Shown here: piece by piece, positions 127 to 5,026 of the stretch
Position numbering within the stretch: the first letter of the stretch is position 1
Layout: each line of letters begins with the position of its first letter
NCBI GenBank assembly: GCA_900548485.1
Contig: URKL01000153.1
Span: forward strand, 1-5,026
Reading direction: 5' to 3'
Source: an uncultured Succinatimonas sp.
GTDB taxonomy: Bacteria > Pseudomonadota > Gammaproteobacteria > Enterobacterales > Succinivibrionaceae
Length of the DNA: 5,026 nt
Made by a program: the position numbers and the translations under genes
Notes under the pieces: model-generated
Database searches by the model: none
What the model was told of the DNA's origin: nothing
Seen by the model: only the letters and a program-made list of their open reading frames with translations

Positions 127-2013
127 CTATTGATTTTCCTTTACTACCATGGGTAATTGCTTATGTAAGGATAATTGCACTGTTCTTAAATCTTCCCCCA
201 TATGCTCAATAAAAGTTCTGATAGCGTTATTTTCTATTAACTCTTCACGAGCATCAGCAACTGCCTTTTTTAAGGCTACACGCGCTAAAAACTCTGGACA
301 TTGTTCAGGCACGCCCTCAATAGAAGTAATATTTATCTCAATATCTTGATGTTTTAATTTAGAAAAAGACTCTTTTATTTTATTTAAGAAATTTTGAGAC
401 TGACTTACAAATCTGCAATCTGAACTTATATATAAATTCCACACATGAGGATTATTAGCATCAATTTCACGTCTGCTGTAAATTAAACAACCATACTCTA
501 AACTATTAAAGTTGGCTGCACAGATATCCTGAAGCCACTTATCTGTCTTTAAAACCTCATCATAAAGATCGTCGCTCTGTAATTCCTTATCTAAACTTAG
601 GTTGTCTTCTAAATATTGTTCTACCTCAAAGCTAGTTTTGGCTGTAGGCTTTCCATCAACAAGTTTATTGTTGTTAATATTATCGGATGAAAAATCAATA
701 TTTATAAGATCTGAACCTTTTACAATCTCATTTTCGTCTTCATCTTCACTATTAAAGACAATATCATTTTCATAAATTTCTACAGGAACATTTTCAAAGC
801 TTTCAGAGATCTCGTCTTGTGCAGTGTTTAAATCATTTGTATTTAAAGGTTCTTTTATATCTCGTGTAATATTTTCTATATGATTTGCTTGGCAATTAGA
901 TAAAACATCATTTAAAGCTTTTTGTAAATCTTCAGAGAACTTTTGCGGATTATTATTTTGATGCCTTATATATGATTTTTCTGTTTTGCTTAAACATTGA
1001 GATAAAACCTTAGATAAGGAAGGCAAACCGTCATTAAAATAAGCCTTTAATGGCTCTGAACCTTCACTTTCAACAAATAAAACCTCGCAACCACTTTTAT
1101 CTAAAGATAAAGATCTTGGTAAAGAATTAGCTGTATTTGTATTTTCAATAAAGTTAGTTTCAGATAAACGCTGTTGCAATTGCGAAAGCGTAAGTGAATC
1201 TACATCATCTTGCTCAAAAGTTACAGCATCTGTACTTTGTGAGGTAGATTCTTCTTTAAACTCTGCTTTAAAATTAGCCTTAGTAGTAATTTCACGATTC
1301 TCTTTAGGGCTATCATCATTCACAGAAGCTCTAATAGCTGAAGTTAAATTTGAAAGCTCTAGATCTGACAAAGTATTATTTGAGACAGGTTGCGTTGATT
1401 CTTGTTTGCTATCTTGACGCATCATCTCTGAAGCAATTTTGATAAAATTGTCTAAATCAGATGAATTACTGCTGTCTCTTTCACGCTTAGATCTAATCAA
1501 AGCCGTTACTGCATCATGTACGTGTTTAATATAAGCTTTAACCTCATAAAGCTCAGAGAGCATATTAGGGCCTAAGGCAATAGGTTTATTGGCCATAATT
1601 TGCTTAAACGCCTCTGTAGTTTCTAATTTTAAAGGCGTTTTAGTACTAGCAACACTTAAAGTTTTAGGATTTAAAATCTGCTCTAATTGCAAAGCATATT
1701 TTGCATTTTGCTCATTATGAACAGATTTATTATCTTGCGCAGTTACATTTTTTAAAGAATCACTAAAGACGTCTAAAGCAGACATTTCCTGTGATCGCCA
1801 TTGACTTGCAGGTATTGCCTTAACCTTAGATATATTTTCTTGTGGTTCTACACTAGGTTTTACAATAGTACTAACACTTTCAGGTTCAATCTCAACAATG
1901 TTAGAAGCTATTTTAAAAGACAAGCTTGGTTTTAACTCTATTGCTAAACGCGCTCTTAAAGCACTGTATTCACAAAAGAGTTCTAAAGAATACTCACTCT
2001 CACCTAGCCAAGC
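127..2013 (-). CDS. dnaX: DnaX tau-specific part (linker and domain V), read in the -1 frame
   Basis: This frame continues dnaX after a -1 shift at the A-run. It is open from 2058 to the TAG at 129-127 and has no ATG or GTG before residue 47 of the stretch that starts at a TTG (1923), so it does not look like an independent gene. Joined to 371 zero-frame codons it adds 628 residues, giving a tau of about 999 against 643 in E. coli. Residues of about 372-858 are a low-complexity linker rich in Ser, Asn, Asp, Glu and Thr, with an acidic patch SEDEDENE. Residues of about 860-985 match E. coli tau domain V: DKWLQDI resembles DRWAELV, and ADAREELIENNAIRTFIEHM resembles AQARESIIADNNIQTLRRFF. In the family this domain binds the alpha polymerase subunit and couples the two replicase cores; the region before it contacts DnaB helicase. 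I could not place the DnaB-binding domain with confidence. The conserved C-terminus shows the frame is, or recently was, translated. Confidence 0.85.
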   Translation of the reverse strand, partial: AWLGESEYSLELFCEYSALRARLAIELKPSLSFKIASNIVEIEPESVSTIVKPSVEPQENISKVKAIPASQWRSQEMSALDVFSDSLKNVTAQDNKSVHNEQNAKYALQLEQILNPKTLSVASTKTPLKLETTEAFKQIMANKPIALGPNMLSELYEVKAYIKHVHDAVTALIRSKRERDSSNSSDLDNFIKIASEMMRQDSKQESTQPVSNNTLSDLELSNLTSAIRASVNDDSPKENREITTKANFKAEFKEESTSQSTDAVTFEQDDVDSLTLSQLQQRLSETNFIENTNTANSLPRSLSLDKSGCEVLFVESEGSEPLKAYFNDGLPSLSKVLSQCLSKTEKSYIRHQNNNPQKFSEDLQKALNDVLSNCQANHIENITRDIKEPLNTNDLNTAQDEISESFENVPVEIYENDIVFNSEDEDENEIVKGSDLINIDFSSDNINNNKLVDGKPTAKTSFEVEQYLEDNLSLDKELQSDDLYDEVLKTDKWLQDICAANFNSLEYGCLIYSRREIDANNPHVWNLYISSDCRFVSQSQNFLNKIKESFSKLKHQDIEINITSIEGVPEQCPEFLARVALKKAVADAREELIENNAIRTFIEHMGEDLRTVQLSLHKQLPMVVKENQ

Positions 2014-2015
2014 TT
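1922..2015 (-). repeat. Nested inverted repeats just downstream of the dnaX slippery site
   Basis: In the minus-strand RNA, AAGCUUGG (2015-2008) is complementary to CCAAGCUU (1929-1922), an 8-bp pairing across a 78-nt loop. Inside that loop GUAUUC (1993-1988) pairs with GAAUAC (1971-1966), a 6-bp stem with a 16-nt loop that begins about 20 nt after the slippery heptamer. The outer 5' arm overlaps the last slippery codon, so it would be melted by a ribosome sitting there. The inner hairpin is short and AU-rich. The repeats are plain in the sequence, but a role in frameshifting is only a possibility. Confidence 0.35.
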
Positions 2016-3125
2016 TTTTTTTTGGGGTGTAAAAGCCAAAAGGCGTAGTACCATCATTTCAAAAACGCTAGCACTATCAAAAGCAACAGTATTCTCTTCT
2101 ACTGCTTGTAAAGAAATCTGATAATAAAGTTGTAAACTCTCAGGAGCAAATACAGATGCGTATTTCTCTAATAATTCTAGAGGGAATGAAAAAATTGCTA
2201 ATTTTCCCTGATTTACCAACTGATAGAGAGCTAAGTCATGGAAACAAGAGACAATTTCATCTAATAAATTTTTATAATTAGGGCAAGTTTTACGTACATT
2301 TTCTAAAAATGCCCCTAAATCAGCATCTGAATTAGGTCTTAAGATCTCTAAGAGATTAACTATCAGCCCATCTCCTGCTGTACCGAGCATCTCAATAACA
2401 CGATCCCGTAAAAGAGATCCTGAACCTAAGGCAATAGCTTGATCGCATAAAGATAAAGCATCACGCATACTACCTTTAGCGGCTCTTGCTATGAAAGTTG
2501 CGGCTTCTTCTTCGCAAGGGATCCCCTCTTGACCACAAATTTTTTCAATCTGCTCTTTTATCTCATCAATAGACAAAGCTTTAAGCTGGAATTGTAAACA
2601 GCGAGATAAAACAGTAACTGGAATCTTATGCGGATCGGTAGTAGCTAAGATAAACTTTACATATGACGGAGGTTCTTCTAAAGTTTTCAACAAGGCGTTA
2701 AAGCTACTTGTTGAAAGCATATGCACCTCGTCAATAATGTAAATCTTATAACGGCCTGCAATTGGTGGATATTGAGTGTTTTCTAGTAATTGACGTGTAT
2801 CTTCAACCTTAGTTTGCGAAGCCGCATCAATTTCAATTACATCAGGGAAGGAGCCTGTAATAATCGCTTTACAATTATCACAGAGATTACCATCATCATG
2901 AGGATGCGAACTAATTCCGTCCTTGCACTCAAGACATTTGGCAATAATACGAGCAATAGTAGTTTTACCAATACCACGGGTACCGGTTAATAAATAAGCA
3001 TGATGAATACGCTCTGAGTCAATAGTATTGCGCAAAGCTGCAATTACATGTTTTTGTCCAACCACCTCATCAAAGGTCTGTGGACGATATTTTCTAGCTA
3101 GTGCTTGATACTCTGTGATTGCCAT
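2004..3125 (-). CDS. dnaX: DNA polymerase III clamp-loader subunit DnaX (gamma-like zero-frame product)
   Basis: This is the AAA+ ATPase of the clamp-loader complex, which opens the beta sliding clamp and places it on primed DNA. Visible in order: the N-terminal ARKYRPQTFDEVVGQ; Walker A GTRGIGKTT (48-56); a zinc module with Cys64, Cys67, Cys82 and Cys85; Walker B IIDEVHML (130-137); sensor 1 ATTDP (161-165); the SRC arginine finger (Arg175); and sensor 2 GSMRDALSL (218-226). Domain III runs to LLAFTP (362-367). The zero frame then reads QKKKLG and stops at TAG (2006-2004), so it encodes domains I-III only, 373 residues, slightly shorter than E. coli gamma (431). The ATG at 3125 lies 6 nt after the apt stop, with GGA as the only Shine-Dalgarno-like bases, 12 nt away, so translation is probably coupled to apt. 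Full-length tau requires leaving this frame at the A-run (2014-2023). The family assignment is certain; whether the early stop is real or a homopolymer error is not. Confidence 0.97.
   Translation of the reverse strand: MAITEYQALARKYRPQTFDEVVGQKHVIAALRNTIDSERIHHAYLLTGTRGIGKTTIARIIAKCLECKDGISSHPHDDGNLCDNCKAIITGSFPDVIEIDAASQTKVEDTRQLLENTQYPPIAGRYKIYIIDEVHMLSTSSFNALLKTLEEPPSYVKFILATTDPHKIPVTVLSRCLQFQLKALSIDEIKEQIEKICGQEGIPCEEEAATFIARAAKGSMRDALSLCDQAIALGSGSLLRDRVIEMLGTAGDGLIVNLLEILRPNSDADLGAFLENVRKTCPNYKNLLDEIVSCFHDLALYQLVNQGKLAIFSFPLELLEKYASVFAPESLQLYYQISLQAVEENTVAFDSASVFEMMVLRLLAFTPQKKKLG
2013..2023 (-). promoter_or_regulatory. dnaX slippery site: ten A then G, containing A-AAA-AAG
   Basis: On the minus strand ten A residues (2023-2014) are followed by G (2013). 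In the dnaX zero frame they read CAA AAA AAA AAG, so the heptamer A-AAA-AAG (2019-2013) is in the phase needed for tandem tRNA slippage by -1, and it is the same heptamer used in E. coli dnaX. A -1 slip moves the ribosome from the frame that stops at 2004 into the open frame ending at 127. A run of this length can also cause RNA polymerase slippage, as described for the A9 run of Thermus dnaX. No clear Shine-Dalgarno-like stimulator lies just upstream. Possible stimulatory pairing downstream is listed separately. Confidence 0.75.
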
Positions 3126-3131
3126 AAAAAA

Positions 3132-3704
3132 CTAATGTCCAGGTAACTTAAAAAGAGATAAAGGTTTAATGCCCCACTTTTGCTCAATACGCTTGGCACC
3201 GCCTAATTCCATAAGTTCAATGATAAAAGCGATATCAACAATCTTTGCACCTAAGCGCTCGACTAAACAAGCCATAGCTTCAATAGTACCACCTGTAGCT
3301 AAGAGATCGTCAACTAATAAAACCCGCTCATTGCGCTTGAGAGAATCCTCATGGATCTGTAGCTTATTGACACCATACTCAAGCTCATAGGACTCTTCAA
3401 TGGTATGTCTTGGCAATTTGCCAGGCTTTCTCACCATCACAAAGCCGGCCTTTAATTTAGAAGCTAAAGCCGCACCAAAAACAAAACCTCTAGCTTCAGC
3501 GGCAACGACCTTATCTATCTGCGCATCTTTATAAATTGCATAGAGAAGATCTATGGTTATAGCAAAGGCCTGACCATTTTCGCATAATGAGGTAATATCA
3601 CGAAACATAATGCCAGGCTTTGGATAATCAGGGATGCTTTTAATTGTGGACTTTAAAAATTCAATTTTTTCAGAATAATTTGGAATTTTAGTAATGTCGA
3701 ACAT
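3132..3704 (-). CDS. apt: Adenine phosphoribosyltransferase
   Basis: This cytoplasmic purine-salvage enzyme converts adenine and PRPP to AMP and pyrophosphate. With the start used here it is 190 residues, against 183 in E. coli, and it aligns along its whole length. Key blocks are YPKPGIMFRD (27-36), EARGF (70-74), VRKPGKLPR (91-99) and the PRPP-binding loop VLLVDDLLATGGT (128-140), ending in LPGH. I chose the ATG at 3704 because AAGTGGA (3718-3712) lies 7 nt upstream as a Shine-Dalgarno-like sequence. A GTG at 3716 would add four residues (194 in all) but has no ribosome binding site at proper spacing. It is the first gene of an apt-dnaX operon, the order also found in enterobacteria, and its stop is 6 nt before the dnaX ATG. 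A consensus -10 element lies upstream at 3778-3783. No odd residues were noticed. Confidence 0.97.
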   Translation of the reverse strand: MFDITKIPNYSEKIEFLKSTIKSIPDYPKPGIMFRDITSLCENGQAFAITIDLLYAIYKDAQIDKVVAAEARGFVFGAALASKLKAGFVMVRKPGKLPRHTIEESYELEYGVNKLQIHEDSLKRNERVLLVDDLLATGGTIEAMACLVERLGAKIVDIAFIIELMELGGAKRIEQKWGIKPLSLFKLPGH

Positions 3705-3761
3705 GCAGAAATCCACTTATATTAGAAATCTTTTAGATCAAAAACAAAGATAAAATATGTA

Positions 3762-3854: not shown

Positions 3855-4562
3855 ATGAATTTTGGAATATTTTTTGATTTAGATGGCACTTTAGCCGACA
3901 CCGCCTTAGATCTTTGTTATGCATGTAACCATACACTAGAAAAATGGCATTTGGAAAGTGTAAGTTATGAAGAGATCTGCCAAAGTGTAAGCCTTGGTAT
4001 AAAGGCTATGCTCTCTTTACGAATAGGAGATAATTTACTCTCGCAATACCCTCGTGATAGCCTAATGCGACAAGAGTTTTTAAACTTCTATAATGATAAT
4101 ATCTGTACTAAAACTAAAAGTTTTCCCTATGCTTTAGTTTTATTAAAAAAACTAAAAAAATCAGGATTTAAAATTGCTGTTGTAACTGGCAAATACCACC
4201 ATCTTGCAATAAATCTTTTAGATAAATTAGAGCTCCTACCTTTTATTGATTTAGTTGTAGGCTCTGATGAATGTAAAAAAGCTAAACCTGCCCCAGATTC
4301 TTTATTATTAGCTTTAAATAAATTAGATATTAAAGCGCAAAATTGTATATATATTGGTGATCATGAAAATGACATTAAAGCTGCGGATAACTGCAAGATG
4401 AGTTCTATTGCCGCAGCTTGGGGTTATGGTATTTACGATTGTGGGGAGCCTAAACTTTGGCATGCAACCTATGTTGCAAACGATCTTTCAGAGGTTTTAG
4501 ATTTAGTTTGCCATCATTTTCACGGTAAATGCACGCAAAAGAGTTCTAACTTCTTGTTATAA
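3855..4562 (+). CDS. HAD-family phosphatase, phosphoglycolate / MurNAc-6-phosphate phosphatase type
   Basis: This is a soluble haloacid-dehalogenase phosphatase of 235 residues with all four catalytic motifs: I, FDLDGT (nucleophile Asp8, acid/base Asp10); II, VVTGK (Thr111); III, KAKPAP (Lys144); IV, GDHEND (Asp169, Asp173). The helical cap between motifs I and II is about 90 residues, as in subfamily IA. E. coli Gph (2-phosphoglycolate to glycolate) is one model. MupP (N-acetylmuramate-6-phosphate phosphatase of peptidoglycan recycling) is another: RQEFLNFY in the cap and LWHATYV near the C-terminus resemble MupP as I recall it. Sequence alone does not settle the substrate, so I give no symbol. 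The ATG at 3855 is the only start that keeps motif I, yet it has no Shine-Dalgarno sequence; the leader is AT-only palindrome. It is divergent from apt, and the porin gene follows after 33 nt. The tail after residue 218 (CHHFHGKC) matches nothing I know. Confidence 0.9.
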   Translation: MNFGIFFDLDGTLADTALDLCYACNHTLEKWHLESVSYEEICQSVSLGIKAMLSLRIGDNLLSQYPRDSLMRQEFLNFYNDNICTKTKSFPYALVLLKKLKKSGFKIAVVTGKYHHLAINLLDKLELLPFIDLVVGSDECKKAKPAPDSLLLALNKLDIKAQNCIYIGDHENDIKAADNCKMSSIAAAWGYGIYDCGEPKLWHATYVANDLSEVLDLVCHHFHGKCTQKSSNFLL

Positions 4563-4595: not shown

Positions 4596-5024
4596 ATGAA
4601 AAAAAGCTTAATCGCTGTGGCTTTACTTGCCACTATAGGTAGCACTAATGCCGCCACCATCTATGATAAAGATGGCACTACTTTAGATATTTTCGGCAAT
4701 ATTGAGGTTGGTTATCGCAATGCCAATGCCGCTAAGTATGATAAAGTTTCATCATATAACAGCAGTGACAGCACTATTATGAACACTGCCAAAATAGGCA
4801 TTTCAGGTCGCAGTCAAATTAACGAGAATCTCTATGCTATAGGTATGGCTCAATGGGACGTTGCCTCAGGAGATTCTTTTGACGATTTAAAAGCTCGTCA
4901 TCAATTTATCGGTATTGATGCTCAAAATTATGGCACGCTATTGTTTGGTCGCGGTGATAATGCTTTTTATACACTATACAACTGTCGCGATGGCTGTCGC
5001 ATACAAGAATTGCATCCCTATTGA
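4596..5024 (+). CDS. Outer-membrane porin (OmpF/OmpC-type), 5' part with early stop at window end
   Basis: The product is the beginning of a general diffusion porin, a trimeric outer-membrane beta-barrel. Residues 1-19 are a Sec signal peptide: KK, a hydrophobic core LIAVALLATIG, and cleavage after STNA. The mature start ATIYDKDGTTLDIFGNIEVGY follows the E. coli OmpF pattern AEIYNKDGNKVDLYG. Alternating strands continue: NTAKIGISGRSQINENLYAIGMAQW resembles the second and third barrel strands, and YGTLLFGRGDNAFY resembles the FGRNYG segment leading to loop L3. After about residue 126 the match ends (CRDGCRIQ) and a TGA follows at 5022-5024, giving 142 residues against the usual 330-380. The other two frames stay open to the window edge, so an indel, an insertion junction or an end-of-sequence error are all possible. 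The ATG at 4596 lacks a Shine-Dalgarno sequence (leader GCATTAAAAAA). The extended -10 element upstream suggests its own transcription. Confidence 0.85.
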   Translation: MKKSLIAVALLATIGSTNAATIYDKDGTTLDIFGNIEVGYRNANAAKYDKVSSYNSSDSTIMNTAKIGISGRSQINENLYAIGMAQWDVASGDSFDDLKARHQFIGIDAQNYGTLLFGRGDNAFYTLYNCRDGCRIQELHPY

Positions 5025-5026
5025 GT

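Follow-up and report, generated by a model that had tools for sequence, protein, structure and literature searches.

A dnaX gene of an uncultured Succinatimonas with tau in the -1 frame, probable slippage on its A10 run, and differing dnaX polarity among relatives

The window analyzed here is the whole stretch of 5,026 nucleotides from an uncultured Succinatimonas sp. Its minus strand carries dnaX, which encodes gamma, the short clamp-loader protein, and tau, the long form that holds the replication machinery together; the features of the gene and its upstream neighbor are collected in Table 1. Divergent from apt-dnaX, on the plus strand, are a HAD-family phosphatase gene (3855-4562) and, at 4596-5026, the beginning of a porin gene; the nearest models for the phosphatase, those of phosphoglycolate phosphatase, match it below the cut-off.

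Table 1. Features of the dnaX locus in the window.
Feature	Position	Strand	Basis or remark
dnaX zero-frame ORF, gamma form (domains I-III)	2004..3125	-	373 aa; Pfam, NCBIfam
A10 run, proposed slippage site	2014..2023	-	sequence
A_AAA_AAG, possible ribosomal shift site, zero-frame phase	2013..2019	-	sequence
TAG, zero-frame stop, gamma end	2004..2006	-	sequence
TGA, +1-frame stop	2000..2002	-	sequence
tau extension, -1 frame	130..2013	-	628 codons after shift, stop 127-129
tau domain V, approximate, alpha-binding by homology	142..657	-	profile alignment, -1 frame end
apt (adenine phosphoribosyltransferase), upstream neighbor	3132..3716	-	domain match; order as E. coli apt-dnaX

The zero frame of dnaX begins with an ATG at 3125 and its 3' end reads TTT ACA CCC CAA AAA AAA AAG CTT GGC TAG, with exactly ten A followed by G (T10 on the plus strand). 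DnaX domains I-III were recognized in this ORF by both Pfam and NCBIfam. Between 2058 and its stop the -1 frame is uninterrupted, and a shift at the A-run adds 628 codons, so that tau would reach about 999 residues. Reading in the +1 frame is closed by the TGA, which combines with the zero-frame stop as TAGGTGA, a string that is found in 21 of the 42 reversed genes described below. An earlier note on this DNA had described a zero frame ending at 2004 directly after domain III, a -1 frame open from 2058 to 127 and, at the junction, A10-G with A-AAA-AAG in the correct phase, and all three are confirmed. It had also named 11 or 8 A's as lengths that would place tau in the standard frame; the run counts ten in the window, as assembled sequence and not raw reads.

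The nature of the -1 frame was addressed by homology and by its mode of evolution. Pfam and NCBIfam matched no family in the -1 ORF of the window; the Pfam model of tau domain V in particular has no match there, and for P0121-P0129, in-frame proteins of the family, it is missing from the precomputed domains too. Profile alignment gives a clearer result. The C-termini of reversed genes align with those of basal, standard-polarity members of the family (hhalign 99%, E 2.4e-18) and with E. coli tau domain V (hhalign 92%, E 6.5e-7), both being one-against-one E-values, and the tail of the window itself aligns with in-frame tau proteins, the best E within a set of seven being 2e-35. In eight pairs of close relatives the dN/dS of the tau frame is 0.16-0.33, compared with 0.00-0.07 in domains I-III of those same pairs; a ninth pair was saturated. 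Judged from these ratios, the -1 frame is evolving as coding sequence under purifying selection. The proposal that it carries tau domain V is thus supported by the alignments to in-frame and E. coli tau, and the wider one, that the plain frame gives gamma and the -1 shift gives tau, by conservation, purifying selection and domain V homology together.

Relatives were reached in steps, from a sample of the class to a genome with apt-dnaX, then to its order, where 28 of 394 genomes had strong matches, and from there to the family of one of these. The family set comprises 56 genomes, of which 52 have a dnaX match at E<=1e-60, one per genome; among the other four, three are without a dnaX match even at 1e-10 and one has a weak partial match only. 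The closest named relatives among the database matches listed are Succinivibrio, Anaerobiospirillum, Ruminobacter and 'Succinivibrionaceae bacterium', and from these names on database proteins we infer that the group is the Succinivibrionaceae. The layout of the window, which we call reversed, recurs in 41 of the 52 family genomes with readable dnaX, which together with the window makes 42 genes, and in the relatives as a whole tau is not uniformly in the plain frame. The zero frame of the 42 genes ends 1-14 codons past the A-run and the -1 frame is 484-1262 codons long if complete, or at least 246 where the end of a contig or locus cuts it. The protein database gives the same picture: of the 86 best relatives with 205-653 aa, 81 end at most about 13 residues from the lysine run. 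Among its best 120 matches, an in-frame query (G770, which admits about 670-2130 aa) found nine clusters with an identity of 59% or more, and seven of these (P0121-P0127) have an intact in-frame junction.

The run itself is A10 in 35 of the 42 reversed genes, A9 in four, and A11, A13 and A7 in one each, so that 41 of the 42 have A9 or longer at the junction. The A7 belongs to G779 (L159), where the run reads TCA AAA AAA TCC. The protein end SKKSIG of P0017, a cluster of 32 member sequences, matches G779, and the A7 is therefore probably not an error of one assembly.

One possible option is that gamma and the C-terminal part of tau are two separate proteins and that the second has its own start. 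In the window a TTG lies 30 codons into the -1 frame and would open a 598-aa ORF. Yet, 40 of the 42 reversed genes are without an ATG or GTG preceded by a Shine-Dalgarno (SD)-like motif within 40 codons, 13 of the 42 are without any ATG, GTG or TTG within 60 codons, and such a start would leave the A-run without a role. Based on this survey independent initiation of tau was rejected, and we regard it as highly improbable.

Outside the family the search brought a second case. A class-wide sample of 369 genomes gave no match above 55% identity among the matches listed, and a scan of genome contigs found only distant dnaX genes, with an identity of at most 54% over a segment. Among the short frames checked in the class-sample matches listed, G363 (L206 1504-3116), which lies outside the first family, is the only true reversed dnaX; the short open frames of G311, G083, G131 and G050 merely run off their contigs, and G305 has an in-frame TAG well ahead of the junction, near a contig end. 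The best 120 database relatives of G363 (0.55-1.75 times its length) are 106 short proteins with a similar end and 14 long ones. The family of G363 has 41 genomes with 36 matches and 30 loci (L211-L240); 29 junctions are readable, one locus ends before the junction, and the six matching genomes without a locus stand outside the junction count. All 29 junctions have exactly A9, and 13 of them are reversed and 16 standard. In the tree a single switch parts the reversed from the standard genes (support 100/98). At most of these junctions the A9 is followed by GCCTG or a close variant, and the difference lies in how the run is phased to the reading frame.

The mechanism that best fits these data is slippage on the A10. 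In it the window holds one dnaX gene, the plain frame of which encodes only the 373-residue gamma while the -1 frame holds the extension to tau, and RNA polymerase is the probable agent, with transcriptional slippage acting alone or leading; we hold this explanation as a whole to be probable. While transcribing the run, RNA polymerase would insert extra A's or leave some out. Messages with 10 (or 13, or 7) A's would be read to the TAG and give gamma, those with one A more or two fewer would be read into tau, and those in the third frame would stop at the TGA and yield a gamma-like product. Ribosomes that shift by -1 at A_AAA_AAG may add to this.

Several observations on the run bear on this. 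Outside the junction 46 dnaX genes of the family, 155,538 nt in all, contain no A9 or longer and only two A8, and Baranov (2005) describes selection against A/T runs that sets in at nine in a large share of genomes. At the junction the run, nearly always of nine or more, is kept in both polarities. In all 42 reversed genes the run is opened by a codon that ends in A and does not encode Lys, where 14.9 would be expected from the usage of each gene itself, and the same holds in 29 of 29 genes of the G363 family against 11.2 expected; in the Ruminobacter-like branch this codon is TTA, the own-gene usage of which is 0.00-0.09 in six of seven genes. These codon and per-gene counts take no account of the kinship among the genes. 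Within the second family, run length stays constant while its phase changes, which counts toward transcriptional slippage.

Against RNA polymerase slippage stands the A7 of G779, a length that is poor for it, and also the fact that A_AAA_AAG or A_AAA_AAA is available for a ribosomal shift. The other hypothesis is therefore that the mRNA is faithful and that a programmed -1 ribosomal frameshift at one of these heptamers makes tau. The window and most Succinivibrio-like relatives have A_AAA_AAG correctly phased, G779 retains only the seven A's, and Chlorobium has a reversed dnaX for which E. coli-like signals are described (Atkins 2016). However, no SD-like motif was found in the 22 nt upstream of the run in any of 46 family genes, a motif that is found in E. 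coli, and no consistent structure was seen downstream of the run (mean fold z -0.21, with 3 of 42 reversed genes below -2), although this test is of low power, as the E. coli dnaX control itself reaches a z of only -0.70. In addition, the runs exceed what the heptamer needs, and the A9 of the second family is constant though its phase to the frame changes. We consider the ribosomal shift a possible but rather unlikely source of tau by itself. What the earlier note had said of the A-AAA-AAG and its phase holds, but the evidence leans to RNA polymerase slippage over a ribosomal shift.

The gene can be set beside known dnaX genes. In Thermus thermophilus gamma and tau come from one gene with an A9 run and stops close behind it (PMC1088944). 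The window has a run of at least nine A's, as in the Thermus type, and the Thermus gene reads tau in the plain frame and gamma by slippage, which in the window is reversed (PMC1088944). In the two frames of the window that do not give tau, the TAG and the TGA follow the run. A nearby +1-frame stop would be expected under transcriptional slippage, but across these AT-rich dnaX genes its distance is what chance would give (mean null p 0.46, against 0.21 for the zero frame and 0.14 jointly), which counts against that mechanism, and TAGGTGA as a mark of slippage by itself has no statistical support. In E. coli dnaX tau is also read plain, with an SD-like element upstream and a stem-loop downstream of the shift site (PMC5009743, PMC3711429). 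The window shares with it the in-phase A_AAA_AAG, domains I-III and the upstream apt, and differs from it in the reversed polarity and in lacking the SD-like motif.

Reversed recoding as such was an accurate description of the layout, but its kind had already been described. Antonov et al. (2013, NAR 41:6514; PMC3711429) report, in 12 genera, 17 dnaX genes that need recoding to make tau, with A10 in nine of the 17 and 7-10 A's in 12 of them; they propose transcriptional realignment and name Chlorobium and Chloroherpeton. As in these two-ORF genes, the zero frame of the window stops directly past the site with tau in the -1 frame, a poly-A run lies at the junction (A10 in the window and 7-13 in the 42 reversed genes), and the frame transition is conserved with tau as the downstream frame. 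What differs is the polarity flips that seem to have occurred here within a family and, judged from proteins, within a species, of which the relevant passages of Antonov et al. contain none. None of the stems Succini, Ruminobacter, Anaerobiospirillum and Aeromonad, taken from names in the family or its order, occurs in their main text (PMC3711429). A different case is the frameshifted dnaX of Blochmannia vafer and floridanus, for which transcriptional slippage on a poly-A tract was proposed to be needed for full-length tau (PMC3017870); in those reduced genomes of endosymbionts, unlike in the window, the indel falls within the part unique to tau, past the gamma site (PMC3017870). Among papers matching dnaX with slippage, polarity or family names, the titles of which were partly surveyed, we found no description of dnaX recoding in the Succinivibrionaceae. 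Reversed dnaX is thus known as a kind, and what is new, as far as these searches go, is its occurrence across the family, the differences in polarity inside the family and the second lineage.

The polarity differences take several forms. In four of the 52 genomes the plain frame runs through the same junction into tau, with A8 in G785, A12 in G770 and A10 in G762/G714. The -1 frame of these genes stops 0-2 codons past the run, so that slippage would yield gamma there. In the tree of domains I-III they fall in three places inside reversed clades; G785 pairs with a reversed neighbor at a support of 98/75, the other two pairings having 100/97 and 100/99, and in G785 only the junction is readable, since its tau is interrupted by an N gap. 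The plain frame of G762 and G714 closes again after the A10, at 487-489 aa. About 170-320 nt past that stop a frame of 1071+ or 1144+ codons continues (G762, L186 2966-3284; G714, L187 2893-3065), and this second break may be an insertion, a second recoding or decay.

Tau is in the plain frame also in seven basal genomes of the family. An A10 near codon 450 in G668 and G784 (L196, L197) and an A9 near codon 487 in G741 and G570 (L200, L202) are followed by a -1 stop 0-2 codons on, a Thermus-like layout in which the site lies 80-120 codons further on than in the reversed genes; the slippage site thus seems to have changed its place in addition to flipping. One more of the seven has an A8 at codon 916, and in the last two, one of which is cut by a contig end, no run reaching 8 was found. 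The parts read of three of the 52 genomes (G782, G783, and G418) are without an A9 run, which counts against transcriptional slippage. Both layouts are found among lineages of one family, which seem to have flipped between them.

The closest comparison comes from P0121-P0123, which read EKKKDWIGEE in frame at the junction and are at least 99.7% identical over domains I-III to the reversed G658 (L157); the tau of P0121 is 98% identical to that of G658. One species appears to carry both polarities, possibly as a run-length polymorphism, with the proviso that these entries are proteins alone, which would look alike for a true allele and for an assembly error. From this, polarity may be labile. 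The same entries can be read in favor of an assembly or sequencing error, with a true run of 11 A's, or of a decaying gene that has lost tau, because tau is in frame in them while the genome of the same species is reversed. That the layout recurs in 41 of 52 species-level genomes, and among the database clusters in 81 of the best 86, does not fit such an error or decay, nor does the purifying selection on the tau frame. Among the explanations weighed here we find error or decay the least probable, with hardly any weight.

A view that ties polymerase slippage to these differences is that polarity is evolutionarily free. With slippage on a run of some 9-13 A's, either allele would yield both gamma and tau. 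Single-base indels that bring tau into the plain frame, or take it out, would for that reason be tolerated, and such tolerance would explain the polarity differences within the family. Lineages, and even strains, would flip by single-base indels, and most Succinivibrionaceae and part of the second family would then depend on slippage for a protein expected to be essential. We lean toward this view, if only slightly.

The Succinivibrionaceae are a family of the animal gut and the rumen. If the above is true, most of its members make a replication subunit expected to be essential only by way of decoding 'errors'. The polarity differences then constitute a natural experiment that asks whether selection acts on the tau:gamma ratio or on the mere presence of both forms, and they offer a comparative route to separate polymerase slippage from ribosomal frameshifting. 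Gene callers, for their part, would store the short form only; several database entries of 365-374 aa are labelled 'subunit gamma/tau'.
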